Positions 40,968 through 55,630 of a stretch of DNA of 64,000 nucleotides are shown in pieces. Source of the stretch: Pedobacter glucosidilyticus DSM 23534 (GTDB lineage: Bacteria > Bacteroidota > Bacteroidia > Sphingobacteriales > Sphingobacteriaceae); NCBI RefSeq assembly GCF_000425145.1, contig NZ_AULF01000009.1, positions 62,001 through 126,000 on the forward strand, given 5' to 3'. The notes under the pieces were generated by a model that saw only the letters and a program-made list of their open reading frames with translations, had not been told where the DNA came from and searched no databases. Position 1 is the stretch's first letter, and each line of letters begins with the position of its first letter. The position numbers and the translations under genes are program-made.

Positions 40968-41282
40968 ATGAATCATTTTAACATCATAAAGCGTAGCACC
41001 TTAATTGAATTTTATACTAAGTATCCTGATGCTAAAAAGCCTATAGAACTTTGGTATTCTGAAATTAGAGAAAGTGATTTTAGCAATTTTAATGAGTTAA
41101 AGGCCGTTTATAAGCATGCAAGTGTAGTAGCAAATAACAGAGTTGTGTTTAATATAAAAGGTAATAACTACAGATTAGTTGTAAAGATTAACTTTTACAC
41201 TAAGCAAATTTTTATCATCTGGTTTGGTACACATAAAGATTACAATAAAATAGATGTAGAAACTATAAGCTATAAAAAATGA
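40968..41282 (+). CDS. higB: HigB family toxin
   Basis: 104 residues, matching the HigB/RelE-like mRNA interferase family of Bacteroidota (MNHFNIIKRSTLIEFYTKYPDAKKPIELWYSEIRESDFSNFNELKAVYKHA, then NNRVVFNIKGNNYRLVVKINFYTKQIFIIWFGTHKDYNKID). It should cleave mRNA at the ribosome when released from HigA. Its last four bases overlap the ATG of the antitoxin gene. Toxin-first order is typical of higBA. Confidence 0.85.
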   Translation: MNHFNIIKRSTLIEFYTKYPDAKKPIELWYSEIRESDFSNFNELKAVYKHASVVANNRVVFNIKGNNYRLVVKINFYTKQIFIIWFGTHKDYNKIDVETISYKK

Positions 41283-41638
41283 ATTGGACAATTTTAAAAA
41301 CAGAAAGCGATTATAATAAAGCCTTAGAGAGGCTAGACATAATTTTTGATGCTGAACCTAATAGCCCTGATTTTGCAGAAGCTGAATTATTAGGATTGCT
41401 TATCAGTAATTATGAGGATAAGCATTATCCAATAGCCAGCCCCAATCCCATAGAAGCTATAAAATTGAAGATGGAAGAATTAGGATTAAAGAATAAAGAC
41501 CTACAGCCTTATATTGGGTCTAAAAGCTACGTATCTTCTATACTAAGCGGTAAAAGGGAAATAACATTGCGTATAGCTAATATTTTACACCATAAACTCG
41601 GTATCCCTACTGTGGTATTCTTTAACGCAAACGTTTAA
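41279..41638 (+). CDS. higA: HigA family antitoxin
   Basis: 119 residues. The N-terminal half is helical and acidic (toxin-binding in this family). The C-terminal half has the helix-turn-helix GLKNKDLQPYIGSKSYVSSILSGKREITLRIANILHHKLGIP. The overlapping ATGA with higB shows coupling. It probably binds the palindrome at 40932-40948. Confidence 0.85.
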   Translation: MNWTILKTESDYNKALERLDIIFDAEPNSPDFAEAELLGLLISNYEDKHYPIASPNPIEAIKLKMEELGLKNKDLQPYIGSKSYVSSILSGKREITLRIANILHHKLGIPTVVFFNANV

Positions 41639-42152: not shown

Positions 42153-42184
42153 TTTGAATTTCATCCGCCTAAGCGGTATCTTTG
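42153..42184 (+). promoter_or_regulatory. Orphaned ahcY promoter at the left end of the element
   Basis: TTTG (42153-42156), 20 bp, then TATCTTTG (42177-42184): an excellent Bacteroidota sigma-A (TTTG / TAnnTTTG) promoter. It reads into the ATG at 42207, which is the start of ahcY's first four codons inside the left attachment site. A CCGC-CTAA-GCGG palindrome (42165-42176) fills the spacer and may be an operator. The intact ahcY gene now stands 10.5 kb away. Confidence 0.75.
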
Positions 42185-42202: not shown

Positions 42203-42219
42203 AACTATGTCATCAGTAG
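42203..42219. other. Left attachment site (attL core)
   Basis: AACTATGTCATCAGTAG is identical to 52749-52765. The match extends to 26 of 28 bases over 42194-42221 and 52740-52767. It includes the ahcY start codon and Met-Ser-Ser-Val codons; here the frame ends after eight codons. Confidence 0.85.
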
Positions 42220-42295: not shown

Positions 42296-42323
42296 TTAAT
42301 AATATTTCGTGGTATTAATAAAA

Positions 42324-42345
42324 GGTGTGCAAATGGTGTGCAAAT
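42324..42345 (+). repeat. Two tandem 11-bp repeats, candidate arm-type integrase sites (left)
   Basis: GGTGTGCAAAT occurs twice in direct tandem (42324-42334, 42335-42345), immediately upstream of a TATATTTG -7 box (42349-42356) and the integrase ATG. The same pair, slightly diverged and in the same orientation, lies at the right end. Confidence 0.7.
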
Positions 42346-42360
42346 TCTTATATTTGTAAT

Positions 42361-43620
42361 ATGGCATCAGCGCAAATCTATTTAGACAAAAGGCGACAAA
42401 AAGCAGACGGTAGTTTTCCTATTAAAATACGTGTGGGTAATGGTAAAGAGGTTCGGTATTATAGTACCGTACACAATTGCAATGGCCCTCATCATAAAGA
42501 GGAGTTTGACAAAATTATAACTGGGGGAGGACGGAATAAAACTATAATTAAAAAGCATGATGATTTGATAAGTTTACTTAATAAGGCAACGCAAATTATC
42601 GACACTCTTTATCCCTTTGATTTTGATACATTCGAAGTTAGATTTCGTCAAAAAGGTAATAGGTTAGATTTAATTTCCCTATTAATAAGTAAATCAGAAA
42701 AACTTAGATTAGAAGAAAAGTTTGGGAATGCTAATTTATACAAACAAGCTGCAAACCTCTTAACTGTTTACATATCAGAAAAAAATAACAGTGAGTTGTT
42801 ATTAAATAGTATCACACCTAAATACTTAAGTGAGTTTGAGTCTTGGGCCTTAAGCATAAAAAACAATAAGAAAGAACCTAAGTACTCGAAAACTACCCTA
42901 TCAATCTACATGATTAGAGTAAGGGCAATTTTTAACGATGCTATCAGCGATCAAGTTGTACACCCTTCTGTTTACCCTTTCCACACTCCACAAAATAATA
43001 GGGGTTATAAAATACCAGTACCAGCCGGAAACAAAAGAGCCTTGACGAAAGCTCAAATAATGCAAATTTTGAATTATGAGGCTTTGACCGATAAGCAGCA
43101 ACAAGCAAAGGACTTTTTCATATTCTCATACCTAGCTAGCGGAATGAATCTTATAGATATATTTTCCCTTCGTTGGTCTGATGTAAAAGGCGATGTCTTT
43201 ACTTTTATAAGGAAAAAAACAGCCGGTAAAACAGGCGGACGAAATGTAATTTCTATCACCTTAAACAAGGTCATGTTTGATATAATAGACAGACAAGGGA
43301 ATAAAAGAGGAACCAGTCCCCTAGTGTTCAAAATATTAAATCCTAATGCTTCAGAATTAGAAATCCAAAAAACCACAAGGCTCGTAATTGCAAGCATTAA
43401 TTCCAATCTTAAAAAGATAGCTGCCAAATTAGATATTACAACCGATATATCTAGCTATTACGCTAGACATAGCTTTAGCACCAACCTAATGAACAATAAC
43501 GCCCCAGTAGTATTTATTAGCAAGCAGTTAGGGCATACTAGTATAAAAACAACAGAGAATTATTTAGGTGAGTTCACAGATAATAACGCTCAATCTTACA
43601 CCGATAATCTTTTAGACTAG
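42361..43620 (+). CDS. int: Tyrosine recombinase (integrase) of the element
   Basis: 419 residues from ATG 42361; an upstream GTG at 42325 lies within the tandem repeats and is unlikely. Domains: N-terminal arm-binding region (QIYLDKRRQKADGSFPIKIRVG), SAM-like core-binding region (~120-215) and C-terminal catalytic domain. In the catalytic domain SGMNLIDIFSLRWSD corresponds to the first Arg motif but has Asn instead of Arg, a substitution-type change also known for the CTnDOT integrase. SYYARHSFSTNL gives the second Arg-His, and QLGHTSIKTTENYLGEF gives LGH and the nucleophile Tyr. It should join the element to the ahcY site. Confidence 0.92.
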   Translation: MASAQIYLDKRRQKADGSFPIKIRVGNGKEVRYYSTVHNCNGPHHKEEFDKIITGGGRNKTIIKKHDDLISLLNKATQIIDTLYPFDFDTFEVRFRQKGNRLDLISLLISKSEKLRLEEKFGNANLYKQAANLLTVYISEKNNSELLLNSITPKYLSEFESWALSIKNNKKEPKYSKTTLSIYMIRVRAIFNDAISDQVVHPSVYPFHTPQNNRGYKIPVPAGNKRALTKAQIMQILNYEALTDKQQQAKDFFIFSYLASGMNLIDIFSLRWSDVKGDVFTFIRKKTAGKTGGRNVISITLNKVMFDIIDRQGNKRGTSPLVFKILNPNASELEIQKTTRLVIASINSNLKKIAAKLDITTDISSYYARHSFSTNLMNNNAPVVFISKQLGHTSIKTTENYLGEFTDNNAQSYTDNLLD

Positions 43621-44007
43621 AATTGTCATATTACAGTCAGTATTTTTTATTATTTGTCTTAAAATTTTAAGATGAATAACAAAAAAGACCTAATTATTAT
43701 ACGTTTTTATTACGATTGCCAAAGGCAAACATCTATAAATCAGTTATTTGTAAAATATTTAATGTTTAACTAAGGTATATATTAGTATATTTGGGCAAGC
43801 GAAAGACAGATATTTTAATCTGATTTTTATAGACGGTTTCACGCTCGTAAACGGCTATGATTGATAAAAGAAATATTGTGGCTTAAGTCGCTTCGACTTT
43901 ACTGAAAAATCGCAAAAACGCAAAAAAGGAAAAAAGACCACTACGTAAAAAGTTGAGAATTAAAAGCAAGGGCGTTTGCTAATCATTAATCTTTAAAATT
44001 TACGAAA
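43621..44007. other. 387-bp non-coding region downstream of int
   Basis: No gene seen. It contains a candidate -7 box TATATTTG (43786-43793) and a perfect small hairpin AAGTCG-CTT-CGACTT (43885-43899) within a ~200-bp leader before the first HTH gene. It may hold the promoter of the 44008-48361 operon and possibly a structured leader or small RNA. Confidence 0.5.
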
Positions 44008-44202
44008 GTGAATAAACCTGATGTGTATGGCCTGAAAGGTCTCCAAGAACTTCTAAATTGCTCTAAGTTTACAGCGCAGAAAATCAAAAATAGCGGAAAA
44101 ATACCTTTTATTTCTGTTGGTAAAAAACTAGCATTCAATAGTGAAGAAGTATTACAAGCGTTAACTACTAAGGCAAAGGAGGGTCTACCCAATGCAAACT
44201 AA
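44008..44202 (+). CDS. Small HTH protein (DUF3853/excisionase-like)
   Basis: 64 residues. DVYGLKGLQELLNCSKFTAQKIKNSGKIPFISVGKKLAFNSEEVLQAL has the winged-helix pattern of MerR-type excisionases and DUF3853 proteins. GTG start at 44008. It overlaps the next HTH gene by 11 bp. Likely a recombination directionality factor or element regulator. Confidence 0.7.
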   Translation: MNKPDVYGLKGLQELLNCSKFTAQKIKNSGKIPFISVGKKLAFNSEEVLQALTTKAKEGLPNAN

Positions 44203-44527
44203 TGTAATGCAAAATCCTTTTGAGTTAATCCTTAATAAACTCAATCATTTAGAAAGCCTGATAGGTTCTGCTGCAACACAATCCTCAACGTCTTTTAAAT
44301 ATTTAAGCGTTGTTGAAGCAGCTCGGTTTTTAGATAAAACACCCAACGCTTTACGTGTAATGGTCTGCAAAAACCAAATAAAACACATTAAGAAAGGTGG
44401 AAAGCTTTATTTTCTTCAATCCGATATTGAAGAATATATGGAAAGCGGAAGGGTTGAAATAAAAAGCAAGGAAGACCCGATAGAAGCTTTAAAAGTTGGC
44501 AATAAAAAGAAAGGAGTCTCAAAATAA
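44192..44527 (+). CDS. Excisionase-family HTH protein
   Basis: 111 residues. The core KYLSVVEAARFLDKTPNALRVMVCKNQIKHIKKGGKLYFLQSDIEEYMESG (~33-85) is a clear HTH_17/excisionase domain, preceded by a helical N-terminus (possible coiled coil). Its stop codon overlaps the next start by one base. Together with the preceding HTH gene it could set excision versus integration or control replication genes. Confidence 0.8.
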   Translation: MQTNVMQNPFELILNKLNHLESLIGSAATQSSTSFKYLSVVEAARFLDKTPNALRVMVCKNQIKHIKKGGKLYFLQSDIEEYMESGRVEIKSKEDPIEALKVGNKKKGVSK

Positions 44528-44814
44528 TGAAAACTCCTTTTACTCTCTCTAATTTCGCAAGGCAAGGCAAAACTAAGAATAAAAAACGAAATTCAAAACC
44601 CTTACACAATAATATATCACTGTATACCAATAACTTAATAATAGATATTGCGCCTTACAATACCCAAAAATGTTATATAACTGTTAAGTGTAATGATATA
44701 GTCATCCTATCGGGTATAACTGATATTAAATATCTCAATGACCCTAATATCTTTTACCAAAAAGTAAAGGCTGCTTTGCCAGAATTTTTTAATAATAAGG
44801 GGGGACATAAATGA
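44527..44814 (+). CDS. Hypothetical element protein
   Basis: 95 residues. The N-terminus is basic (SNFARQGKTKNKKRNSKP); the rest is beta-rich (NLIIDIAPYNTQKCYITVKCNDIVILSGI). No family recognised. It overlaps both neighbours by 1-4 bp, so it belongs to the replication operon. Confidence 0.65.
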   Translation: MKTPFTLSNFARQGKTKNKKRNSKPLHNNISLYTNNLIIDIAPYNTQKCYITVKCNDIVILSGITDIKYLNDPNIFYQKVKAALPEFFNNKGGHK

Positions 44815-45854
44815 ACGCTTTAGAAGCCAAAACGATAGGCCTTAAAATAGCCCCGGATTACTCTAGATTCTTAATACACCAATGCTTGGATTTACCTAAA
44901 CCAGAAAGCGTTTTTAGTATTAACGGTATTTCCCTTTTTACAAAGAAATCCCTTTCTCTAGTTAAAGCTAAAGCTAAAGCAGGCAAGACGTCGGCTGTCG
45001 CTTGGATGATTGCACAAATGCTAAAAGACAAGGTTTCAGTTATTTGGTTTGATACAGAACAAGGGTCGTACTATGGCAGCAGAACGCAGCACTGGATACT
45101 ATCTATTGCTTTTTTAGATTCTTCAGAATTTCTACAGTATTATGATTTAAAAACCCTGTCACCTAATGAGAGACTTGAAGCGATAGAACAAATATTATAT
45201 AATAATAAACCTGAGGTTGTTGTAATTGATGGTGTAAGGGATTTAGTAAGTAGCATTAATAACGAGGATCAAGTATCAAACGTTATAACCCATTTAATGC
45301 AATGGGTAGAGAATTACAATTGCCACATAATAAATATTTTACATCAAAATAAATCTGACAATAACGCTAGGGGCCATTTAGGTACAGAATTAAATAATAA
45401 GGTGGAAATAGCGTTAAAAGTTGAGACAGACGCTATCAATCAAATTCTTATATCCCCGGAATTATCAAGGGGCTTACCATTTGAGGGTTTCGCACTTGGT
45501 AGGTCAGATGCTGGAATACCTTATTTAATTAAAGATTGGCTTTCACCTGAATCCGCAAAAACCAAAAACAAAAAGCCCTTACCTACTCAAATTGATTATG
45601 AATTTCATGTTAGTGTTTTACAAAAGGTTTTCCATAATGAACATCAATTAAATGGTTCAAATTTTTACAACGAATTTATAGTCGCTTACAATTCTCTTGT
45701 AGATGCCACGATTGATAAAATGGTTTATAACCGATCAAGGGAATTTCTAAATTTTTATGTGAGAGAAAAATACTTATGCCTTCAAAAAGGTAAGCGAAAC
45801 AACGAAATTTTATACGAACTAAACCCGGAAAAAGAAGATGATAAATTCATTTAA
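44811..45854 (+). CDS. RepA-like RecA-fold ATPase (AAA_25)
   Basis: 347 residues. The Walker A motif is variant, KAKAGKTSAVAWM (~55-67). The Walker B is VVVIDGVRDLVSS (~140-152), with HIINILHQNK (~175) as a sensor-like strand. This matches the RepA/DnaB-like hexameric helicase family carried by plasmids and phage satellites. The C-terminal ~80 residues may be a winged helix. It directly precedes an iteron-like region and the primase gene, which supports a role in element replication. Confidence 0.8.
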   Translation: MNALEAKTIGLKIAPDYSRFLIHQCLDLPKPESVFSINGISLFTKKSLSLVKAKAKAGKTSAVAWMIAQMLKDKVSVIWFDTEQGSYYGSRTQHWILSIAFLDSSEFLQYYDLKTLSPNERLEAIEQILYNNKPEVVVIDGVRDLVSSINNEDQVSNVITHLMQWVENYNCHIINILHQNKSDNNARGHLGTELNNKVEIALKVETDAINQILISPELSRGLPFEGFALGRSDAGIPYLIKDWLSPESAKTKNKKPLPTQIDYEFHVSVLQKVFHNEHQLNGSNFYNEFIVAYNSLVDATIDKMVYNRSREFLNFYVREKYLCLQKGKRNNEILYELNPEKEDDKFI

Positions 45855-45879
45855 GGACGTCGGTTCGATAGTAGATAAC

Positions 45880-46022
45880 GGTTTGTTAACAAACCAAAAT
45901 AACAAACCGGTTTTGGGTTTGTGGTTTGTTATCCCCCTATATATAGGGGGTAACTAACACACCAAACCACGAATAAAAAAGTATAAAAATTTGAAAGCAG
46001 GTAATTAGTAAAATAACAAACC
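45880..46022. other. Iteron-like region, candidate replication origin
   Basis: Six matches to AACAAACC or its complement occur in 143 bp: 45880-45887 and 45888-45895 (forming a perfect 16-bp palindrome), 45901-45908, 45916-45922 (partial), 45923-45930, and 46015-46022, with a further variant ACCAAACC at 45961-45968. An 18-bp perfect palindrome, CCCCCTATA/TATAGGGGG (45933-45950), sits in the middle. The region lies between the ATPase and primase genes. Confidence 0.6.
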
Positions 46023-46033
46023 GAAAAGTCATT

Positions 46034-47080
46034 ATGGAAATATCAAAATTTGAGAAAATACATTTTTTAAAACCGATAGCCACTATTCACCCCTTAGAGC
46101 CTTTTCTTGACATGGGTTGTAAAGACATCATTGAAAGCATAAGAGCCGAACCGATTGAGGATATACAAAAGCTGATGAAGACCGAGAATTTACCCGCCTT
46201 CACAGCAAGCGGTACTTTTTCACCAACTCGAAATGAAGCCAGTTTAAAGAAGCATAGCGGCTGCATAGCCTTTGACATTGACAAATTGAAAGCGTTTGAG
46301 GTTGACCCCTTAAAACGTTTACTGAAAGACGACCCGTTCGTTTATGCTTGTAGCTTATCTGCAAGAGGTAAAGGCCTTTGTGGCTTATTTAAAATTTCAG
46401 AGCCAGCATTTCATAAAAAACATTTTGCAGCAATGGAAAGGTATTTCTTAATGACGTATCATGTAAAATTAGACCCCGCCCCCAGTAATGTGGCAAGTGG
46501 TAGGTTTTACAGCTATGATGCAAACCCTTTTATAAACGAAAAATCAAAAATATTTGAATATTTATATGATGAACCTAAAAAGCCAAAAAACAACTATTCT
46601 GGTAAAAGTAATAGTTATAGCGTAGCAGATGATTTTAACATTAGAGGCGGGGCGTTAATTGAAGAACTTTTAATCGAACACGGTTGGGCTTATATTGAAA
46701 CAAAAGGCACAAACAATAGATACACAAGGCCCGGTAAGACCTCGGGTATTAGTGCAAATTATTGTAGTGAAAGAAAACTATTCTTCGTATGGTCAACTGA
46801 CCCCGACACAGGTTTAAAAGTCGACAGAGCTAAAGCTTTTAATCATTGGGCCGTATTCGTTCAACTAGAGTGCAACGGCGATCAAAAAGAAGCTGCCAGA
46901 AAGTTATACGCTTTAGGCTATGGGAACCCCTTGGACATTACACCACACGTTGAAGCCCCTGAGATAATCGATTTATCAAAGTTATTCAATTTTCCTTTTT
47001 TAATCCCTGCAAACTCTTTAGAGGTTAAAATCTGTGATGAAATATTAACCCCTCAACAATTTAATCAAATATTAACATGA
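46034..47080 (+). CDS. BT4734-like primase / VirE-N domain protein
   Basis: 348 residues. The N-terminal part (EDIQKLMKTENLPAFTASGTF, KKHSGCIAFDIDKL, DDPFVYACSLSARGKGLCGLFKI, FLMTYHVKLDPAPSNVASGRFYSYDAN) is the BT4734/BF3469-type domain related to archaeo-eukaryotic primases: FDID supplies the metal acids and SGRFYSYD the conserved C-terminal motif. The rest resembles the PriCT-like region. A full-length partner is often fused to a helicase; here it stands alone, with the ATPase encoded just upstream. It should initiate element replication. Confidence 0.8.
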   Translation: MEISKFEKIHFLKPIATIHPLEPFLDMGCKDIIESIRAEPIEDIQKLMKTENLPAFTASGTFSPTRNEASLKKHSGCIAFDIDKLKAFEVDPLKRLLKDDPFVYACSLSARGKGLCGLFKISEPAFHKKHFAAMERYFLMTYHVKLDPAPSNVASGRFYSYDANPFINEKSKIFEYLYDEPKKPKNNYSGKSNSYSVADDFNIRGGALIEELLIEHGWAYIETKGTNNRYTRPGKTSGISANYCSERKLFFVWSTDPDTGLKVDRAKAFNHWAVFVQLECNGDQKEAARKLYALGYGNPLDITPHVEAPEIIDLSKLFNFPFLIPANSLEVKICDEILTPQQFNQILT

Positions 47081-47271
47081 CAAATAGTGAGAAAATTAAG
47101 AAAGTTATTCAAAACACCCAATTAATATAACAAACTTTAGAAGCTTGGAACAATAAGCCAGATTTAGACACTTGCTTGACAATCAATCAGATATATCTTG
47201 AGTCAAATAGGCTCTTGTTTCAGGTTTTAATCTCAGTTTCCGAAAAACTTGAAAGTATAGACTTTGAGTAA
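47077..47271 (+). pseudogene. Small gene interrupted by one in-frame stop
   Basis: ATG 47077 overlaps the primase TGA (ATGA). The frame reads MTNSEKIKKVIQNTQLI, then TAA (47128-47130), then continues open for 46 codons (QTLEAWNNKPDLDTCLTINQ..., ending ESIDFE) to TAA at 47269-47271. The coding-like continuation suggests a single nonsense mutation in a ~64-residue protein. Product unrecognised. Confidence 0.5.
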
Positions 47272-47328
47272 ATGGTTAATAAATGAAATACGAATAATAA
47301 ATGTCAAATAAACACTTAATAAATAAAA

Positions 47329-47523
47329 ATGGAACAGAAACTAATTGCAGAAATGCTACAAAATTTGGATGAGGCCTCAAAAGAGCTCAGGAAATTACAG
47401 CCACCGAAAGAAGAAGACCCTGCAAAGGTATCGGAGCCGGTTAAGAATTATCTCGACTGGCAAAAATCAGAAAACGAGAAAAGAGAAGCAGCCAAAAAGC
47501 AAGGAATCTATAAAGGGTATTAA
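47329..47523 (+). CDS. Small acidic/helical hypothetical protein
   Basis: 64 residues, highly charged (EQKLIAEMLQNLDEASKELRKLQPPKEEDP, EKREAAKKQG), probably helical. No family recognised. ATG start with a purine-rich stretch upstream; 12 bp before the next gene. Confidence 0.6.
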   Translation: MEQKLIAEMLQNLDEASKELRKLQPPKEEDPAKVSEPVKNYLDWQKSENEKREAAKKQGIYKGY

Positions 47524-47535
47524 TAATTAAACAAA

Positions 47536-47736
47536 ATGGAAAATATAATAATATCGCCCCCTATTATCAAAACTAGCACCTTTCAGGGTGCTACGAACTA
47601 CATCGATATGTATAATGAAAAGAAAGCTCTTTTAGCTGCAATCGAAAACGGAACAGCTTATACAGTTAGTGCTGAACTAAACAACTTTTTAAAACACACA
47701 GACCCAAATTTATACCACACTATTAACGCTTTATAA
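47536..47736 (+). CDS. Small hypothetical protein
   Basis: 66 residues (MENIIISPPIIKTSTF, NYIDMYNEKKALLAAIENGTAYTVSAELNNFLKHTDP). No family recognised; short, mixed helix/strand. Closely spaced genes on both sides suggest one operon from ~44 kb to the terminator at 48395. Confidence 0.6.
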   Translation: MENIIISPPIIKTSTFQGATNYIDMYNEKKALLAAIENGTAYTVSAELNNFLKHTDPNLYHTINAL

Positions 47737-47737
47737 C

Positions 47738-48361
47738 ATGGAAAAGATATTTATCTCAATTGATTCAAAAAAACAAAATAAATCTTTATCGAACTTACAA
47801 TTACTCTCTGATGCTCTTAAAAACGCTAATGACGTTCTACTTAGAATTATTGGTAATCCATTAGATACCAATATTGCTAAAACATTAGTTTTCAAAGGAA
47901 TTGATGTTTTTGTAGGTGATTTTGTCAAGAATTTTGAATTACAACTTAAGAAAGAAAACAAACCTTTACTATATATCCAAAATAGTTGTAATGATATAAA
48001 AGAACCACTTCTTGAAGACTTAAAAGAAGCTTTTGAACCTATCAAAAACATACCCTATAAGGATTATTTCAAGTATATAGCTCTCCATAAAAATGGCAAT
48101 CCGTTAATTCTGGAGAATGCCCAAAAAGATATAACTGAAGATTGTACAATTTATGCAGATTCAGAAGCAAAAATACAGCTACATAAAAAACATTTAGAGG
48201 CTGTTAAGATTTTAAATGAATTATCAAACGCATACTACGAGTTATTCCAGCGAAGACTAACCATGTATGACTTTTATGGAACTTTTCTGAAATTTAATGA
48301 TAATGGTCAACTTATTCCTGTAGAAATACCATATAATTTATCAATTGAAAACAGAAATTAA
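47738..48361 (+). CDS. Hypothetical element protein, 207 residues
   Basis: Mostly helical, Lys/Asn/Leu-rich protein with no signal peptide or recognisable motif. The start codon is 1 bp from the preceding stop. It is the last gene before a strong terminator, so it ends the replication-module transcript. Confidence 0.65.
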   Translation: MEKIFISIDSKKQNKSLSNLQLLSDALKNANDVLLRIIGNPLDTNIAKTLVFKGIDVFVGDFVKNFELQLKKENKPLLYIQNSCNDIKEPLLEDLKEAFEPIKNIPYKDYFKYIALHKNGNPLILENAQKDITEDCTIYADSEAKIQLHKKHLEAVKILNELSNAYYELFQRRLTMYDFYGTFLKFNDNGQLIPVEIPYNLSIENRN

Positions 48362-48394
48362 TAATTAACCGAAGGGGCGCAAATTCGGGCATAG

Positions 48395-48440
48395 AATAAG
48401 GGTAAATATTTGTTAATGAGATATTTACCCTTATTTTTAT
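48395..48440 (+). terminator. Terminator ending the replication-module operon
   Basis: AATAAGGGTAAATAT (48395-48409) pairs perfectly with its complement at 48421-48435, followed by TTTATT. Confidence 0.8.
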
Positions 48441-48461
48441 TAGACTTTTAAAATTATTTAT

Positions 48462-48638
48462 ATGCCTGTAGATATATCAAACGGTGGCTTAAACTTTAGT
48501 AGTGATTTAGACCCTCAAGGATTTGTACAGGGCGCAAATACTATTAAACAGAAAGAAGCTGAACTAAGAAAGGTTGTAGCTGACGGAGCAAAACAGCAAA
48601 AGTTTTACACCGATGAAATGTTACAGAGCTGGATTTGA
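48462..48638 (+). pseudogene. Truncated phage tape-measure-like N-terminus
   Basis: A 58-codon frame, MPVDISNGGLNFSSDLDPQGF, then VQGANTIKQKEAELRK and a helical stretch, ending at TGA 48636-48638. The glycine/Asp-rich start followed by a coiled-coil-like run resembles the first residues of tail tape-measure proteins in Bacteroidota phages. Real tape-measure proteins exceed 600 residues, so this would be a remnant. Assigned by resemblance only; a genuine small protein is possible. Confidence 0.4.
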
Positions 48639-49275
48639 TTTGAGCAAAAAGCAGTTTGACTTCCATGTAGTTACCGCCAAAGAGCAACTAGACATAGCCA
48701 TGAGTATAATATTAGCAAGTATAGATTTAGAAGGTGAAAACATATATGTGGGTACCGACAAGAAAGCATTTAATATAAAAAGCGGTTTACCCTTAAAGGA
48801 AGAGGTTACAAAACTATATGAGATAAGACCCAGATTATTTTTTGCAGGTAATGGAGTAGATGATATTATTTATAGAGTAAAAGAAATACTGATAGAAAGC
48901 AACGATAAATCAGTTGAGGATTTGTTTACTATCATCAATAATATTAAAGTTTCTACGATAGAGGTTAACAATAAAATAATTGGGGACTGCGTATTTGTTA
49001 TTTGTGGTCTGCTAAACGATAAACCTTTCATTTATGTTAGAGATACCAAAAGCGGTCAAAGCCACTTATTGAAGCCAAAATCCGGCAGGATAATTTATGT
49101 TCTAGCGACTTTTAATGATGAAGTAGCAAAAGAACTACATTCCTACTTTCCTTCGCAGTACAACCGTTTAAACGATTGTTCAGCCTCAATATTAAATACT
49201 TTAAGGAAAGGGAGCACCTTATGTAATACAATTGGTGAAACTTTCGATATAAAAACCACAAAATTAAGCAGATGA
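48613..49275 (+). CDS. Hypothetical protein with possible Ntn-hydrolase-like fold
   Basis: 220 residues from ATG 48613, but ATG 48700 (residue 30) is an attractive alternative: it gives MSIILASIDLEGENIYVGTDKKAF, followed by EEVTKLYEIRPRLFFAGNGVDDI. A Ser/Thr just after Met, two strands, an Asp, a Lys and an AGxG turn are reminiscent of HslV/proteasome-type Ntn hydrolases, but this is a fold-level guess. The first 29 codons overlap the tape-measure-like fragment and may be its frameshifted continuation. Its stop overlaps the start of the next gene (ATGA). Confidence 0.5.
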   Translation: MKCYRAGFDLSKKQFDFHVVTAKEQLDIAMSIILASIDLEGENIYVGTDKKAFNIKSGLPLKEEVTKLYEIRPRLFFAGNGVDDIIYRVKEILIESNDKSVEDLFTIINNIKVSTIEVNNKIIGDCVFVICGLLNDKPFIYVRDTKSGQSHLLKPKSGRIIYVLATFNDEVAKELHSYFPSQYNRLNDCSASILNTLRKGSTLCNTIGETFDIKTTKLSR

Positions 49276-50111
49276 ATAAAACAACAAGATTAAAATTTAA
49301 AGTAAGTGCTCTTAATAATAGATGTGCTTCAGGTGTTATGTTAGTTGGCGATGCTGCCGGTAATAACAACGCCGGTGTGTCTGGTGTGGTAGATGCCACA
49401 CCCGGCAATAGTGTAAGGTTTTGGGCTGGAGCTCCTTATGCAGATCGGAATACAGCACCTTATAGAGTTCAGCAAGATGGTAGTTTTTATTCAACTAAAG
49501 GCAAGATAGGTTGTTTAGATATAGGTGTTAATGATTTACGTCTTGGGGACGAAAGTAGTTGGGCAGCTAACAGCAATTATATTACTATATCAGAAAGTTA
49601 TTTTTTATATAGAAAAAACGGCAATGTTGTAGGAAACAAAAGAGAAGTTGCATTTGATTTATACAGCAATCAACTGGGTAGTCCCAATACCATATCCTTT
49701 AAAGTTGAAAATTCTACTGAAAACAGTGGTATTTTTGGAGGTGCAAATGTGGCTGTTCTAGGCGATGCTAAGAACGGAAACCTAAACTATGCTTTCTATG
49801 CGGGTAATGGACTTTCAAAATTCAGAGGTATAGAAAATGAAGTTAAAATTTCAGCATCAGGCTATACTTTAACTAAAGATGATTACTATGTATTAATTAC
49901 CTCAGGCGGTAATGTTTTTTTACCGGCCAATCCAGAAGAAGGTCGCACCGTTTGGGTGGCAAAAAATACCGCTTCAACGGTAACCCTTCAAGGAAACGGC
50001 AAAACAATCTTTGTTAGAAATGATGGTGGAAATAGTGCTATAACCTTACAATGGTCTATGCAATTAATTTATGCTGGTGGTGCATGGAGATTATTGCAAC
50101 AATTGGTTTAA
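49272..50111 (+). CDS. Phage tail/fibre-like protein
   Basis: 279 residues without a signal peptide, glycine- and asparagine-rich and beta-rich: GVMLVGDAAGNNNAGVSGVVDA, GDESSWAANSNYITIS, and a C-terminal SGYTLTKDDYYVLITSGGNVFLPANPEEGRTVWVAKNTASTVTLQGNGKTIFV. That C-terminal module resembles receptor-end domains of phage tail fibres. It is the last + strand gene of a short unit with the Ntn-like gene, ending at a perfect terminator. Phage origin is inference. Confidence 0.55.
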   Translation: MNKTTRLKFKVSALNNRCASGVMLVGDAAGNNNAGVSGVVDATPGNSVRFWAGAPYADRNTAPYRVQQDGSFYSTKGKIGCLDIGVNDLRLGDESSWAANSNYITISESYFLYRKNGNVVGNKREVAFDLYSNQLGSPNTISFKVENSTENSGIFGGANVAVLGDAKNGNLNYAFYAGNGLSKFRGIENEVKISASGYTLTKDDYYVLITSGGNVFLPANPEEGRTVWVAKNTASTVTLQGNGKTIFVRNDGGNSAITLQWSMQLIYAGGAWRLLQQLV

Positions 50112-50120
50112 TATATCGAA

Positions 50121-50157
50121 TTCAGTAGTACTTGTTGATTCCTGAAGTACTACTGAA
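50121..50157. terminator. Bidirectional terminator between convergent genes
   Basis: TTCAGTAGTACTT (50121-50133) pairs perfectly with AAGTACTACTGAA (50145-50157). The right arm overlaps the stop codon of the lipoprotein gene. No long T-run, so strength is uncertain. Confidence 0.6.
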
Positions 50158-50536
50158 TTACTAAGCTATCCATGGCATTTTCATCAAGCATTTTTTTTAC
50201 GTCTGGTACGCTTTTAGCCCTGTCTTGTAGTCTACTAACTAAATTTTCATCGAGCTTAATAGTCAAGTCCATGTTCTTTTTATCAACGATTGAAAAACCT
50301 GTTGGTTCACCAAAAAAGGTCAATTCCTTTTGTTTTATCATTTCTTTATAGAACAAATCTAGCGCTTCCATGTATGCCGTTGTATCATTTTCTGATTGGA
50401 TTGAATAAGTGGAATCCTTTTCATAAAAATTAAGCGTTAAACGATACTCATTTAAATTAGCTGTTGTCGGTTTATTTGAACTGCCTTTACAAGAGATGAT
50501 AAAAAGAGCCAAAGCGAATAGTAATGATTTTTTCAT
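50150..50536 (-). CDS. Small lipoprotein carried by the element
   Basis: 128 residues. MKKSLLFALALFIISCKGSS is a lipoprotein signal with lipobox LFIISC, Cys16 lipidated. The mature part is acidic (NEYRLTLNFYEKDSTYSIQSENDTTAYMEALDLFYKEM, ending LDENAMDSLVIQ). No family recognised. Prophage- or satellite-encoded surface lipoproteins often alter phage adsorption or exclude superinfection; that role here is a guess. It is read from the left side of the divergent control region, after the 77-residue gene. Confidence 0.7.
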   Translation of the reverse strand: MKKSLLFALALFIISCKGSSNKPTTANLNEYRLTLNFYEKDSTYSIQSENDTTAYMEALDLFYKEMIKQKELTFFGEPTGFSIVDKKNMDLTIKLDENLVSRLQDRAKSVPDVKKMLDENAMDSLVIQ

Positions 50537-50568
50537 AGTACTAAAATATTAAAAAAACATATTACTAT

Positions 50569-50802
50569 CTAATCCTTAGGAGCTTTATCGTTTATCGCAT
50601 CCGCTAAATCTTTTAGAACCCCCCAGGCTTTTTTCAAATCTTCATCCGTTAATTGCTGGGTACTGTGTCCAGACTTTACTCTATTAACCTTATTATAGAG
50701 TCTTGAGCGTGGATTGCTTTTACCTTCGTACATTTTGTTAGCTATACCAGTAGCGTTTATCTCTGGACGCTCTAAAATCTCTTTAAAATCTTCTTCCTTC
50801 AT
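50569..50802 (-). CDS. Small hypothetical protein, possible element regulator
   Basis: 77 residues (MKEEDFKEILERPEINATGIANKMYEGKSNPRSRLYNKVNRVKSG, then LTDEDLKKAWGVLKDLADAI). A helical, lysine-rich protein in which the first half could be a helix-turn-helix. It is transcribed leftward from the divergent regulatory region, the position expected for a repressor of the rightward genes. Unproven. Confidence 0.55.
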   Translation of the reverse strand: MKEEDFKEILERPEINATGIANKMYEGKSNPRSRLYNKVNRVKSGHSTQQLTDEDLKKAWGVLKDLADAINDKAPKD

Positions 50803-50827
50803 ACTGTAAAGATAATAATAATCTAAA

Positions 50828-50897
50828 TTGAATTATACTTTTGTATAACATTACGTTTCTATGACAAATAAACAATAATTGAATTATACATTTGTAT
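50828..50897 (+). promoter_or_regulatory. Duplicated promoter/operator in the divergent control region
   Basis: TTGAATTATACTTTTGTAT (50828-50846) and TTGAATTATACATTTGTAT (50879-50897) match at 18 of 19 bases. Each contains a TAnnTTTG box (TACTTTTG, TACATTTG). The second is also an imperfect palindrome (GAATTATAC...GTATCATTC). They lie between the leftward 50569-50802 gene and the rightward small-gene operon. Confidence 0.6.
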
Positions 50898-50920
50898 CAT
50901 TCAATTAATAATAGCGGTAT

Positions 50921-51100
50921 ATGAAATCTATAAAGTTACAAAAACAGTTAAATGCAGAATACGCAAAAAGAAACCCTAATATGCCTAAGGTTCTAGACCT
51001 GTATGTTAGAATGAACGAAGAAAAAGTTAAAGAAGGTTTGCCCTACTTAAGACTTGAAAATTTAGAAAAAAGAATCGCACTTAGATCATCAATAATTTAA
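50921..51100 (+). CDS. Small hypothetical protein, first gene of the rightward operon
   Basis: 59 residues, MKSIKLQKQLNAEYAKRNP then MPKVLDLYVRMNEEKVKEGLPYL, basic and helical. It starts 23 bp after the second repeated promoter element. No family recognised; the next gene starts 5 bp downstream. Confidence 0.55.
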   Translation: MKSIKLQKQLNAEYAKRNPNMPKVLDLYVRMNEEKVKEGLPYLRLENLEKRIALRSSII

Positions 51101-51105
51101 TAAGT

Positions 51106-51402
51106 ATGAGATCATTAGTATTTAAAACTGCATGGCAGTTAAATAGCAGCTTCAAGAATTTTTCAGAGGCATTAAAACACGCCTGGGCAATAATAAAGTT
51201 GAAATATAAGATGCTCAAAGGTGTTGTAGAATTTGCTTATAAAAAAGTTGATGGCAGTATAAGAACAGCCGTTGGGACACTACACGCACCTCATGTCAAT
51301 TACGAATTCAAAGGGCAACCTAGTAGCAACAAAACAATGGCATATTTTGACCTTGAACAAGGTTCATTCAGAAGTTTTAAAATTGAAAATTTAATCTATT
51401 AA
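51106..51402 (+). CDS. DUF2693-like SH3-fold protein
   Basis: 98 residues: MRSLVFKTAWQLNSSFKNFSEALKHAWAIIKLKYKMLKGVVEFAYKKVDGSIRTAVGTL, then TMAYFDLEQGSFRSFKIENL. A helix followed by a small beta barrel as in DUF2693/SH3-barrel proteins, which are common in Bacteroidota mobile elements and bear a WYL-like FRSFKI end. Function unknown, possibly nucleic-acid or ligand binding. Confidence 0.7.
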   Translation: MRSLVFKTAWQLNSSFKNFSEALKHAWAIIKLKYKMLKGVVEFAYKKVDGSIRTAVGTLHAPHVNYEFKGQPSSNKTMAYFDLEQGSFRSFKIENLIY

Positions 51403-51405
51403 GCT

Positions 51406-51543
51406 ATGATAACGACAATTGAGCAGTACAAAATTTGGATTGAGAACGCACCTTTAGAAGAAGTTATAAAGATGGGAGAAGAACTGTTAGATATTCTTAA
51501 CTGCGAAATTTTAGGTGTGAAACTCTTAATAGACGAAAAGTAA
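51406..51543 (+). CDS. Small hypothetical protein, 45 residues
   Basis: MITTIEQYKIWIENAPLEEV then MGEELLDILNCEILGVKLLIDEK; acidic. Its stop overlaps the next start (TAATG), supporting that it is translated. Confidence 0.5.
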   Translation: MITTIEQYKIWIENAPLEEVIKMGEELLDILNCEILGVKLLIDEK

Positions 51544-51923
51544 TGGATACTATAGAACAAATTGCGAAAGCTAGACAACTCGGTCATTTAATGAGATTTG
51601 AAGTGCAAAAAAGACCGAACAATACGGACATTGTAGAAGGCACCATACTTTACGCTGTACCTATGTGTAGTGAAAATTTATATTTTCAATTTACAGACGG
51701 TAAACCTAACACCTTTATTGTTGTAGATGATGAAAGTATAGAAGTATTAACTGTAAACCCAAATAAGAGGGTAGAAATAGAAATGATGAATGCTATTAAA
51801 CCAAATATATGGGTGGTTATGTCCCGGCAAGAAAATTTGAAGGTATCTACCAGAAGATTAGAACTGTATAAACAATTTCCCCATCTATTGCCCTCAGTTA
51901 AACTTAAATTGAACGCGAACTAA
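51543..51923 (+). CDS. Hypothetical protein, possible small beta-barrel
   Basis: 126 residues: RQLGHLMRFEVQKRPNNTDIVEGTILYAVPMCSENLYFQFTDGKPNTFIVVDDESIEVL is strand-rich and could be another SH3-like barrel; the C-terminus is basic. No definite family. Coupled to the preceding small gene. Confidence 0.6.
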   Translation: MDTIEQIAKARQLGHLMRFEVQKRPNNTDIVEGTILYAVPMCSENLYFQFTDGKPNTFIVVDDESIEVLTVNPNKRVEIEMMNAIKPNIWVVMSRQENLKVSTRRLELYKQFPHLLPSVKLKLNAN

Positions 51924-51935
51924 TAAAACACAAAA

Positions 51936-52211
51936 ATGGAAATAACACTTTTAACCCTTAGAAACATGTTGGCTGATGCAGCTGAAATTGGAGCTCAAAC
52001 AGCATTAACAAAAGCCGGTCTAATCAAGCCTTGGATAAGTAAAGCAGAAGCTTTTAGAAGATATGGTGAGAAAACTGTAAAGCGTTGGATAGCAGAAGGT
52101 CAAGTAAAACTAAGATACCCTAGCATTAATGCTGTAAAAAAGCATATCAATTTAGAAGAGATTGAAGCTGTAAATAAAGCCTATAATACCCCTATTTATA
52201 AACACTTTTAA
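51936..52211 (+). CDS. Putative DNA-binding HTH protein
   Basis: 91 residues: PWISKAEAFRRYGEKTVKRWIAEGQVKLRYPSINAVKKHINLEEIEAV has a helix-turn-helix of the excisionase/MerR type (SKAEAFRRYG..TVKRWIAEG). It may be a third regulator or the directionality factor of the element. Confidence 0.6.
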   Translation: MEITLLTLRNMLADAAEIGAQTALTKAGLIKPWISKAEAFRRYGEKTVKRWIAEGQVKLRYPSINAVKKHINLEEIEAVNKAYNTPIYKHF

Positions 52212-52231
52212 GGTTTTTACTATATTAGGGT

Positions 52232-52573
52232 ATGAAAACCCTAACCTTACAAATCACAAAATTAAACTTCGATGCTATTCTAGACGGTAGTCAAAAGCAA
52301 GAAGAAAGGCAAATCTGGCCTAATACAGTAAAACGATATATCGTTGACCCTGATGCGCTGGAATTGGAACTTATCAAATACGATGCTCTTTATCTCATCA
52401 ATGGTAGGCAAAAGAACGCTAGACGTTTAACTGTGGAAGTATTAGATGCTGAATTGTTTTTTGAGGTAGATGAAGAAAACAAACAAATAACCTACTTTGA
52501 GAATGGGATTGAATACGATTTAGCATTTGTAAGTTATTCGCTGGGCAAAATCCTTTCAACTGAAAATTGTTAA
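52232..52573 (+). CDS. ASCH-domain (PUA-like) protein
   Basis: 113 residues: MKTLTLQITKLNFDAILDGSQKQEERQIWPNTVKRYI (conserved TL.I.k..FDAIL.G.K.EE.R pattern) and LINGRQKNARRLTVEVLDAELF are characteristic of ASCH domains, which bind RNA or modified nucleotides. Last gene of the element; followed by a terminator. Confidence 0.75.
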   Translation: MKTLTLQITKLNFDAILDGSQKQEERQIWPNTVKRYIVDPDALELELIKYDALYLINGRQKNARRLTVEVLDAELFFEVDEENKQITYFENGIEYDLAFVSYSLGKILSTENC

Positions 52574-52649: not shown

Positions 52650-52657
52650 TAGATTTG
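52650..52657 (+). promoter_or_regulatory. Candidate replacement -7 box for ahcY within the element's right end
   Basis: TAGATTTG fits TAnnTTTG and lies 96 bp upstream of the ahcY ATG, after the ASCH terminator. No good TTTG -33 box at the right spacing was found. A near-match TAAAATTTG lies at ~52704-52712. Weak. Confidence 0.3.
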
Positions 52658-52675
52658 TCTAAGATAATCACGCAA

Positions 52676-52697
52676 GGTGTGTAAATAGTGTGCAAAT
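52676..52697 (+). repeat. Two tandem 11-bp repeats, candidate arm-type integrase sites (right)
   Basis: GGTGTGTAAAT (52676-52686) and AGTGTGCAAAT (52687-52697) in direct tandem match the left-end pair with one difference each. They lie 52 bp before the attR core. Confidence 0.7.
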
Positions 52698-52748: not shown

Positions 52749-52765
52749 AACTATGTCATCAGTAG
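52749..52765. other. Right attachment site (attR core) at the ahcY start
   Basis: AACTATGTCATCAGTAG, identical to 42203-42219; the ATG at 52753-52755 is the ahcY start codon. Confidence 0.85.
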
Positions 52766-55091: not shown

Positions 55092-55340
55092 ATGACAATC
55101 TCAGCAATAAGAATCAAATTACAAGAATATATAAAAGTGGCAGATGAAAAAAAAGTCAAAGCTATTTTTGCACTTTTAGAAGATGATATTGTAAAAGATT
55201 TTAATTGGTGGGAAGATAAAGACTTAGTAAAGGATTTTGAGGACAGGGTAAAAAAATGCAAGAATGGTACAAATAAGGCCTTTTCTTTGGAAGAAATAGA
55301 TGCAGATATAGAGAAAATAAAAGCTAACACTATTTCATGA
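55092..55340 (+). CDS. Putative antitoxin of a RelE/ParE-type pair
   Basis: 82 residues: MTISAIRIKLQEYIKVADEKKVKAIFALLEDDI, then an acidic C-terminus (KDKDLVKDFEDRVKKCKNG, SLEEIDADIEKIKAN). A helical, acidic protein like the short antitoxins preceding RelE/ParE toxins in Bacteroidota. The stop overlaps the toxin start by four bases. Confidence 0.75.
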   Translation: MTISAIRIKLQEYIKVADEKKVKAIFALLEDDIVKDFNWWEDKDLVKDFEDRVKKCKNGTNKAFSLEEIDADIEKIKANTIS

Positions 55341-55630
55341 GCTATAAAGTACTACTAACGAAAAAGAGTAGGAAAGAATTTCTGGATGCTTTTTGTTGGT
55401 ATCAAGAACAAAAATTAGGTTTAGGTGATGATTTTAAAACCGAGATTTATAAACATCTTAATTTAATATCAGAAAATCCAAAACACTATCCCAAAAAGAT
55501 AAGAGAACTAAGAGAATTGGTTGTCAAAAAATTTCCATTTATCATCATTTACAGTATAGATGAAACCTCTAGGATTATCTATATAGCTTCCATCTTTCAT
55601 TTCAAAAGAAACCCAAAAAACAAGGTTTAA
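55337..55630 (+). CDS. RelE/ParE family toxin
   Basis: 97 residues: YKVLLTKKSRKEFLDAFCWYQEQKLGLGDDFKTEIYKHLNLISENPKHYPKKIRELRELVVKKFPFIIIYSIDETSRIIYIASIFHFKRNP, the classic RelE/ParE superfamily pattern (LxxIxxNPxxYP, FPFxIxY, IxIxxIFHxRRxP). Target may be gyrase or mRNA; not decidable here. Coupled to the antitoxin gene upstream. Confidence 0.85.
   Translation: MSYKVLLTKKSRKEFLDAFCWYQEQKLGLGDDFKTEIYKHLNLISENPKHYPKKIRELRELVVKKFPFIIIYSIDETSRIIYIASIFHFKRNPKNKV

Follow-up and report, generated by a model that had tools for sequence, protein, structure and literature searches.

The stretch analysed here, 64,000 nucleotides of a Pedobacter glucosidilyticus DSM 23534 contig (NZ_AULF01000009.1, positions 62,001 to 126,000; hereafter the window), contains an integrated element with phage-like genes at the 5′ end of the housekeeping gene ahcY (TIGR00936, 5.2e-191). 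The 10.5 kb assigned to this element in an earlier, sequence-only reading stands, at 10,546 bp, with its boundaries now corrected to two exact 17-bp direct repeats of AACTATGTCATCAGTAG: the attL core (42203–42219), a duplicated 5′ end of ahcY, and the attR core (52749–52765), which holds the ahcY start codon (ATG at 52753). Insertion is demonstrated by the 617-nt joined empty site, which finds an unbroken, junction-spanning match in three genomes of the same genus. A copy of AAGGTGTGCAAATGGTGTGCAAAT lies inside each end (at 42322 and 52674, 92% alike); from its placement the left one, a tandem GTGTGCAAAT repeat (42322–42345) overlapping the int promoter, is a probable integrase arm site, as the matching repeat at the right end (52674–52697) would be. 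The element separates ahcY from its native promoter, which, going by the Bacteroidota consensus, we take to comprise the −7 box TATCTTTG (42177–42184, + strand), now left of the element, and a TTTG 20 nt upstream. A TAGATTTG box at the right end of the element (52650–52657, + strand), with a long spacing of 25 nt, is a candidate replacement from which ahcY may now be expressed. Because the arm-type repeat follows this substitute-like box, expression of ahcY might be influenced by the binding of integrase.

Profile hidden Markov model searches of the element's proteins matched the integration and replication genes, a tail-protein domain and WYL_2, and bore out the integrase, excisionase-like proteins, ATPase and primase that had been read from the sequence. 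On the + strand of the left half we identified a 419-aa tyrosine integrase (42361–43620; PF00589 5.9e-17, PF13102 3e-13, phrog_1 1.6e-32), two helix-turn-helix (HTH) proteins, one DUF3853 and excisionase-like (44008–44202, 3.5e-6), the other HTH_17 and excisionase/regulator-like (44192–44527, 7e-11), an AAA_25 (RepA/KaiC-like) replication ATPase (44811–45854, 3.8e-9) about 40% identical to those of two related elements described below (L020 and L021), and a BT4734-type primase (46034–47080, 6.9e-14) that is 30–40% identical in six elements of the same plan. A 95-aa open reading frame (ORF) between the second HTH gene and the ATPase gene (44527–44814) had no profile match.

Further right on the same strand, two ORFs that overlap by ATGA specify parts of a tail protein, one of them a predicted enzymatic domain. 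The second (49272–50111), previously called tail-fibre-like, is indeed tail-related (phrog_19846, 1.2e-13) and is actually the C-terminal domain of a large tail protein: it matches the C-terminal ends of prophage tail proteins (32% over 270 aa in one case, residues 640–907 of 910) and the C-terminal part of a protein of genome G266. The first (48700–49275), which the sequence-only reading did not mention, has homologues in L020 and G266, where the matching sequence is the N-terminal part of a single gene (432 and 391 aa, respectively), and appears to be a proteasome-fold (Ntn-hydrolase-like) domain, placed ahead of the tail-protein domain. An initial fold model was poor (pLDDT 46), and a model was made for the homologous L020 domain from three sequences (pLDDT 72, pTM 0.71); it had 340 matches in the PDB (E ≤ 0.001), and every one of the 50 best was a 20S proteasome subunit (TM ~0.5). 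S2, D20 and K37 are invariant in the three homologues, and alignment by eye would place Ser2, Asp20 and Lys37 as expected for the proteasome nucleophile, Asp and Lys. With this modelled fold and these residues, the domain is a putative member of the proteasome-like (Ntn hydrolase) family with predicted activity. Profile and pattern searches found it only in the window, G055 and G266, apart from a marginal, local similarity to an unrelated protein of G062; with homologues in three genomes only, none belonged to a complete phage, and a scan of genome contigs returned only the previously known Arcticibacter locus.

The remaining ORFs are small. Between the primase and proteasome-fold genes, all on the + strand, are ORFs of 64 aa (47329–47523), 66 aa (47536–47736; no match, and not homologous to the DUF5681-like small genes of relatives), 207 aa (47738–48361; no credible match, with weak shuffle tests) and 58 aa (48462–48638). 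The first matched the packaging family phrog_606 only at E = 0.046, which is not credible, and homology of the 207-aa and 66-aa ORFs to genes of relatives could not be demonstrated. The 58-aa ORF, earlier read as a tape-measure-like start, is a possible 5′ stub that we regard as suggestive only, because it has no phage match and a weak advantage over shuffled sequence (5/1000 for the best of seven tape-measure starts, 21–451/1000 for the others); a tape-measure match in G173 proved to be a chance match within a non-phage protein. To the right of the tail-protein domain, on the − strand, are the lipoprotein of the earlier reading, which remains putative, called from a signal-like start only (50150–50536; weak phrog_11687 match, same place in locus L166), and a DUF5053-like small protein, a possible regulator (50569–50802, 8e-5; 51% identical in the G088 element described below). 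There follow, on the + strand, a WYL_2 small protein (51106–51402, 1e-23; 59% identical in the G088 element and 43% in G266), unmatched ORFs of 59 aa (50921–51100), 45 aa (51406–51543) and 126 aa (51543–51923), a phrog_17289-like small protein (51936–52211, 2.3e-7; 48% over 50 aa in L020), relatives of which are present in the full prophages L029/L030, and a phrog_625-like small protein (52232–52573, 5.3e-12).

Profile searches matched no terminase (TerL or TerS), portal, capsid or relaxase family among the window ORFs tested, in agreement with the earlier statement that packaging and capsid genes are missing. The element is thus not a complete prophage, with no TerL, portal or major capsid gene recognised within its att sites, nor does it qualify as an integrative mobilizable element, no relaxase or mobilization protein being found among the window ORFs. 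What it does have is what satellites generally have: an integrase and att sites, its own regulation and replication, and no autonomous virion set. A packaging-redirecting gene or signal (TerS, cos/pac, Rpp) is not universal among satellites, as phage-inducible chromosomal minimalist islands (PICMIs) without one exist; here no TerS was recognised, and relatives of the element (G088 and L110) possess one.

Homologues of the ATPase occur in 25/401 family genomes, at loci of three sorts: full prophages (L027–L030, with TerL tested in L027–L029, portal and head in L029), mobilizable elements with a relaxase, and head-less elements. Other Sphingobacteriaceae contain att-bounded elements (11.0, 12.1, 13.3 and 20.1 kb) that follow the plan of the window element (integrase, HTH, replication module and phage relics, with no head genes recognised) at other sites and in other genera. 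Three of them, L020 (Arcticibacter eurypsychrophilus, 13.3 kb, 17-bp exact repeat), L021 (12.05 kb, 15-bp exact repeat) and L024 (11.0 kb, 47-bp exact repeat at a tRNA end), have BT4734-type primases. The replication proteins of L020 and L021 are 92% identical, their middles differ, and neither has head genes. L024 encodes a protein of 645 aa whose relative in Cellulophaga phage phi46:1 is a virion protein proven by mass spectrometry. IMG/VR contigs add L110 (14.35 kb; integrase, ATPase, primase, TerS with phrog_606 at 1.8e-47, neck and tape-measure-like protein) and L094/L163 (14.8 kb; ATPase, primase, neck and a 1230-aa tail protein), in which no head genes were seen, though these contigs may be fragments. 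The G266 remnant carries a tape measure, distal tail genes and a fused proteasome-fibre gene followed by WYL_2, and IS21-type istA/istB genes stand at its truncated left end (L070, 1869–3951).

The pivotal relative comes from genome G088, whose element (L162/L166) spans 20.1 kb between 19-bp repeats and encodes an integrase, HTHs, a primase, a DUF5906-like protein, TerS (PF03592 1.5e-22, phrog_51 1.6e-30), neck and terminator-like proteins and a tape measure (phrog_18891, 6.7e-91), after which lipoprotein-like, DUF5053-like and WYL_2 genes follow in the same order as in the window. Between its TerS and neck genes there is no TerL, portal, protease or capsid; the place of the head genes is taken by small genes conserved in L021 (40–53% identity), and the element also has a 66–68-aa gene in common with G266. 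The same genome holds a complete prophage (TerL 7e-29, portal 6.7e-193, two head proteins). Over 642 residues its tape measure and that of the element are 57% identical, the next best locus among those compared being the G266 remnant at 39%, with INPHARED phages at ≤38% among the best matches listed. No other proteins are common to the two at E ≤ 1e-3, and the DNA they share is confined to the tape-measure gene, with no shared cos-like stretch seen. G088, in which the element and this prophage have matching tape measures, offers a directly testable satellite-helper pair.

An ATPase tree built by a quick method unites the ATPase of the window with those of the L020/L021 pair and of full phages in one group (96% support, base unresolved) and places L022, L024 and L026 elsewhere, with L094 and L110. 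At least two branches of this tree thus contain head-less elements, and the window ATPase is phage-like, a pattern compatible both with an old, module-exchanging satellite lineage and with several separate derivations from phages.

Other small elements touch on this set. L131 and L124 (IMG/VR, 12.3 and 14.5 kb) carry integrase, ATPase, BT4734-type primase, capsid (phrog_617, 1.4e-30 in L131), protease-like and tape-measure-like genes, and no TerL or portal was seen in either; they are possible capsid-forming satellites of Bacteroidota, or fragments. L157 (IMG/VR, 9.7 kb), probably complete because it has a 123-bp direct terminal repeat, has integrase, ATPase-like and primase genes, and protease-like and TerS-like genes recognised by eye only. 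DUF5681-like small proteins recur in head-less elements (L021 10665–10901 and 12073–12378, L024 10094–10441, L070 4615–4821; weak Pfam scores of 0.014 to 1.9e-5 where matched) and are possibly packaging-related; their phage match does not lie beside a terminase, and a role as TerS is a possibility only. A BT4734 primase does not by itself mark a satellite, since it is also found in mobilizable and other small integrated elements, and faecal ‘Bacteriophage sp.’ records with related ATPases, considered as packaged satellites, contain TraG/VirB-like and relaxase genes and are therefore conjugative or mobilizable elements.

Both origins offered in the sequence-only reading, a deleted prophage and a phage satellite, stay alive, and the same-plan elements tilt the lineage towards the second, since several are att-bounded and head-less and one has TerS without TerL, portal or capsid beside a complete prophage. 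We favour, with a probability of about 0.5, the reading that the window element is an integrated, head-less and phage-derived unit, a reduced member of a satellite-like, helper-dependent lineage of Sphingobacteriaceae. Helper dependence of the lineage is favoured because TerS occurs without TerL, head-lessness recurs with intact att sites, sizes are near those of known satellites (P4 ~10, phage-inducible chromosomal islands (PICIs) ~9.5, capsid-forming PICIs (cf-PICIs) ~14 and PICI-like elements (PLEs) ~18 kb; PMC10803314), and a co-resident prophage has a matching tape measure. Because its fibre gene is split, no TerS is recognised and no resident helper turned up with two terminase profiles, this copy is probably reduced and may be stranded or have lost its mobility. 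On induction or helper infection, such an element would excise and replicate by its ATPase and primase, the large terminase of the helper would package its DNA into the helper's head, and the proteasome-fold and fibre genes would act at the tail tip, either as a self-processing adsorption part or in interference with the helper's tail.

Several observations weigh against this satellite-like reading. No TerS or capsid-size gene was recognised in the window, and neither phrog_2 nor Terminase_3 identified a TerL in the P. glucosidilyticus genome, other terminase families not having been searched for; the phrog_2 matches were only PhoH and an AAA helicase, and Terminase_3 gave none. The fibre gene, one ORF in G266 and L020, is split in two in the window, and the window ATPase clusters with ATPases of full temperate phages, which is what a deleted prophage would show. 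Members do not share one type of integrase, making the ‘lineage’ a mosaic; each keeps a different subset of tail genes, a pattern that decay could also give; and the head-less status of the G266 homologue is uncertain, since that remnant is IS21-truncated. Finally, excision, packaging and transfer of the element in helper particles are steps that we infer.

Simple decay, somewhat less probable and still a serious contender, holds that one internal deletion removed the packaging, head and most tail genes of a prophage, so that what remains on the left is the integrase with the replication and early genes, and on the right the final tail gene with the small-gene regulon. The gene order is indeed that of a circular phage map minus packaging, head and tail, and the G266 order of tape measure, proteasome-fibre and WYL_2 recurs in the window as possible stub, proteasome-fibre and WYL_2; the split fibre gene and the placement of the ATPase in the full-phage clade fit decay as well. 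However, the head-less plan recurs in several genera with att sites intact, L020 and L021 combine nearly the same replication proteins with different middles and no head in either, the G088 element keeps TerS, neck and tape measure with the place of the head filled by genes of other head-less elements, and the tape-measure stub, the main scar of such a deletion, is statistically weak. Moreover, the case proposed earlier as speaking for decay, a full prophage with structural genes in addition to those of the element, was sought without success: ~400 family genomes, INPHARED phages and pattern-based IMG/VR scans yielded no full phage with this gene set, and the full prophages have just a related ATPase, their primase being a different one. 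Nor did any complete phage in these collections share the genes on both sides of the supposed deletion, an absence that is not proof. Least probable is an integrative mobilizable element that a conjugation helper would move, the phage genes being passengers, for although related ATPases occur in many such elements (in L031–L043 beside a different CHC2-like primase, MobC and relaxase, by reading translations, and in conjugative faecal contigs) and a BT4734-type primase accompanies a relaxase in G017, the window ORFs include no relaxase or mobilization gene, the right half is phage-like, and the ATPase groups with phage rather than mobilizable ATPases.

Outside the element, just left of attL, two ORFs (40968–41638) match PD-Lambda-2 A (4.9e-33) and B (1e-34, over the first 118 of 402 positions) and may be a defence pair, one resembling a toxin-antitoxin of the HigBA type. 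Right of ahcY, at 55092–55630, translations read as a RelE/ParE-like two-gene pair, with no PADLOC or NCBIfam match.

Good descriptions of phage satellites exist for Pseudomonadota and Bacillota, and our literature search, with most subscription papers lying outside its reach, found no described satellites of Bacteroidota. Like PICIs, P4-like satellites, PLEs and PICMIs (PMC10803314, PMC11389934), the window element measures ~10 kb, combines integrase, AlpA-like HTH and primase, and has att sites and no complete virion set, with TerS in its G088 relative as in some Staphylococcus aureus pathogenicity islands; unlike them, it sits in Bacteroidota, is known from its genes alone, and has other replication genes and tail rather than capsid-remodelling genes. 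From the PICI set (int, stl/alpA, pri, and capsid-redirection or terS), int, HTH and primase are present, whereas capsid-redirection and terS genes were not seen. PICMIs are defined by integration next to fis and a DUF3987/DUF5906 primase (PMC10803314), in contrast to ahcY and a BT4734-type primase here. The temperate siphophage prophages of Sphingobacteriaceae (L027–L030, L060–L064) have a related AAA ATPase and the tail-protein C-terminal domain but possess a full TerL, portal, head and tail set, and a different primase in those read, and the proteasome-fibre gene was not found in them. NBU-like mobilizable elements of Bacteroidota resemble the window element in integrase, HTH and related ATPase, yet carry the relaxase and MobC that it lacks. 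By description, the proteasome-like domain may be likened to FC4, a proteasome homologue with a phage-tail-like C-terminal domain described only from Firmicutes, and to the phage homologues PPH/AAH (PMC8665760); here, in contrast, the protein belongs to head-less elements of Bacteroidota and, in the window, is split into two ORFs. Division of virion parts between satellite and helper is known from capsid-forming PICIs and from MulchRoom/MiniFlayer, the latter with a tail-fibre gene (PMC10690885), but those encode capsid and terminase and borrow tails; the window element has tail parts and no head genes, and shows none of the capsid, portal, TerL and TerS genes that define a cf-PICI. The same-plan head-less set with TerS and tail genes presents a case in which the contribution of a satellite may be the tail and not the head. 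We consider it unlikely that these elements are ‘reverse cf-PICIs’ of Bacteroidota, taking head, portal and large terminase from the helper and contributing TerS and tail components of their own (tape measure, neck or proteasome-fold fibre); were it so, the product would be a chimeric particle with changed tail or adsorption specificity.

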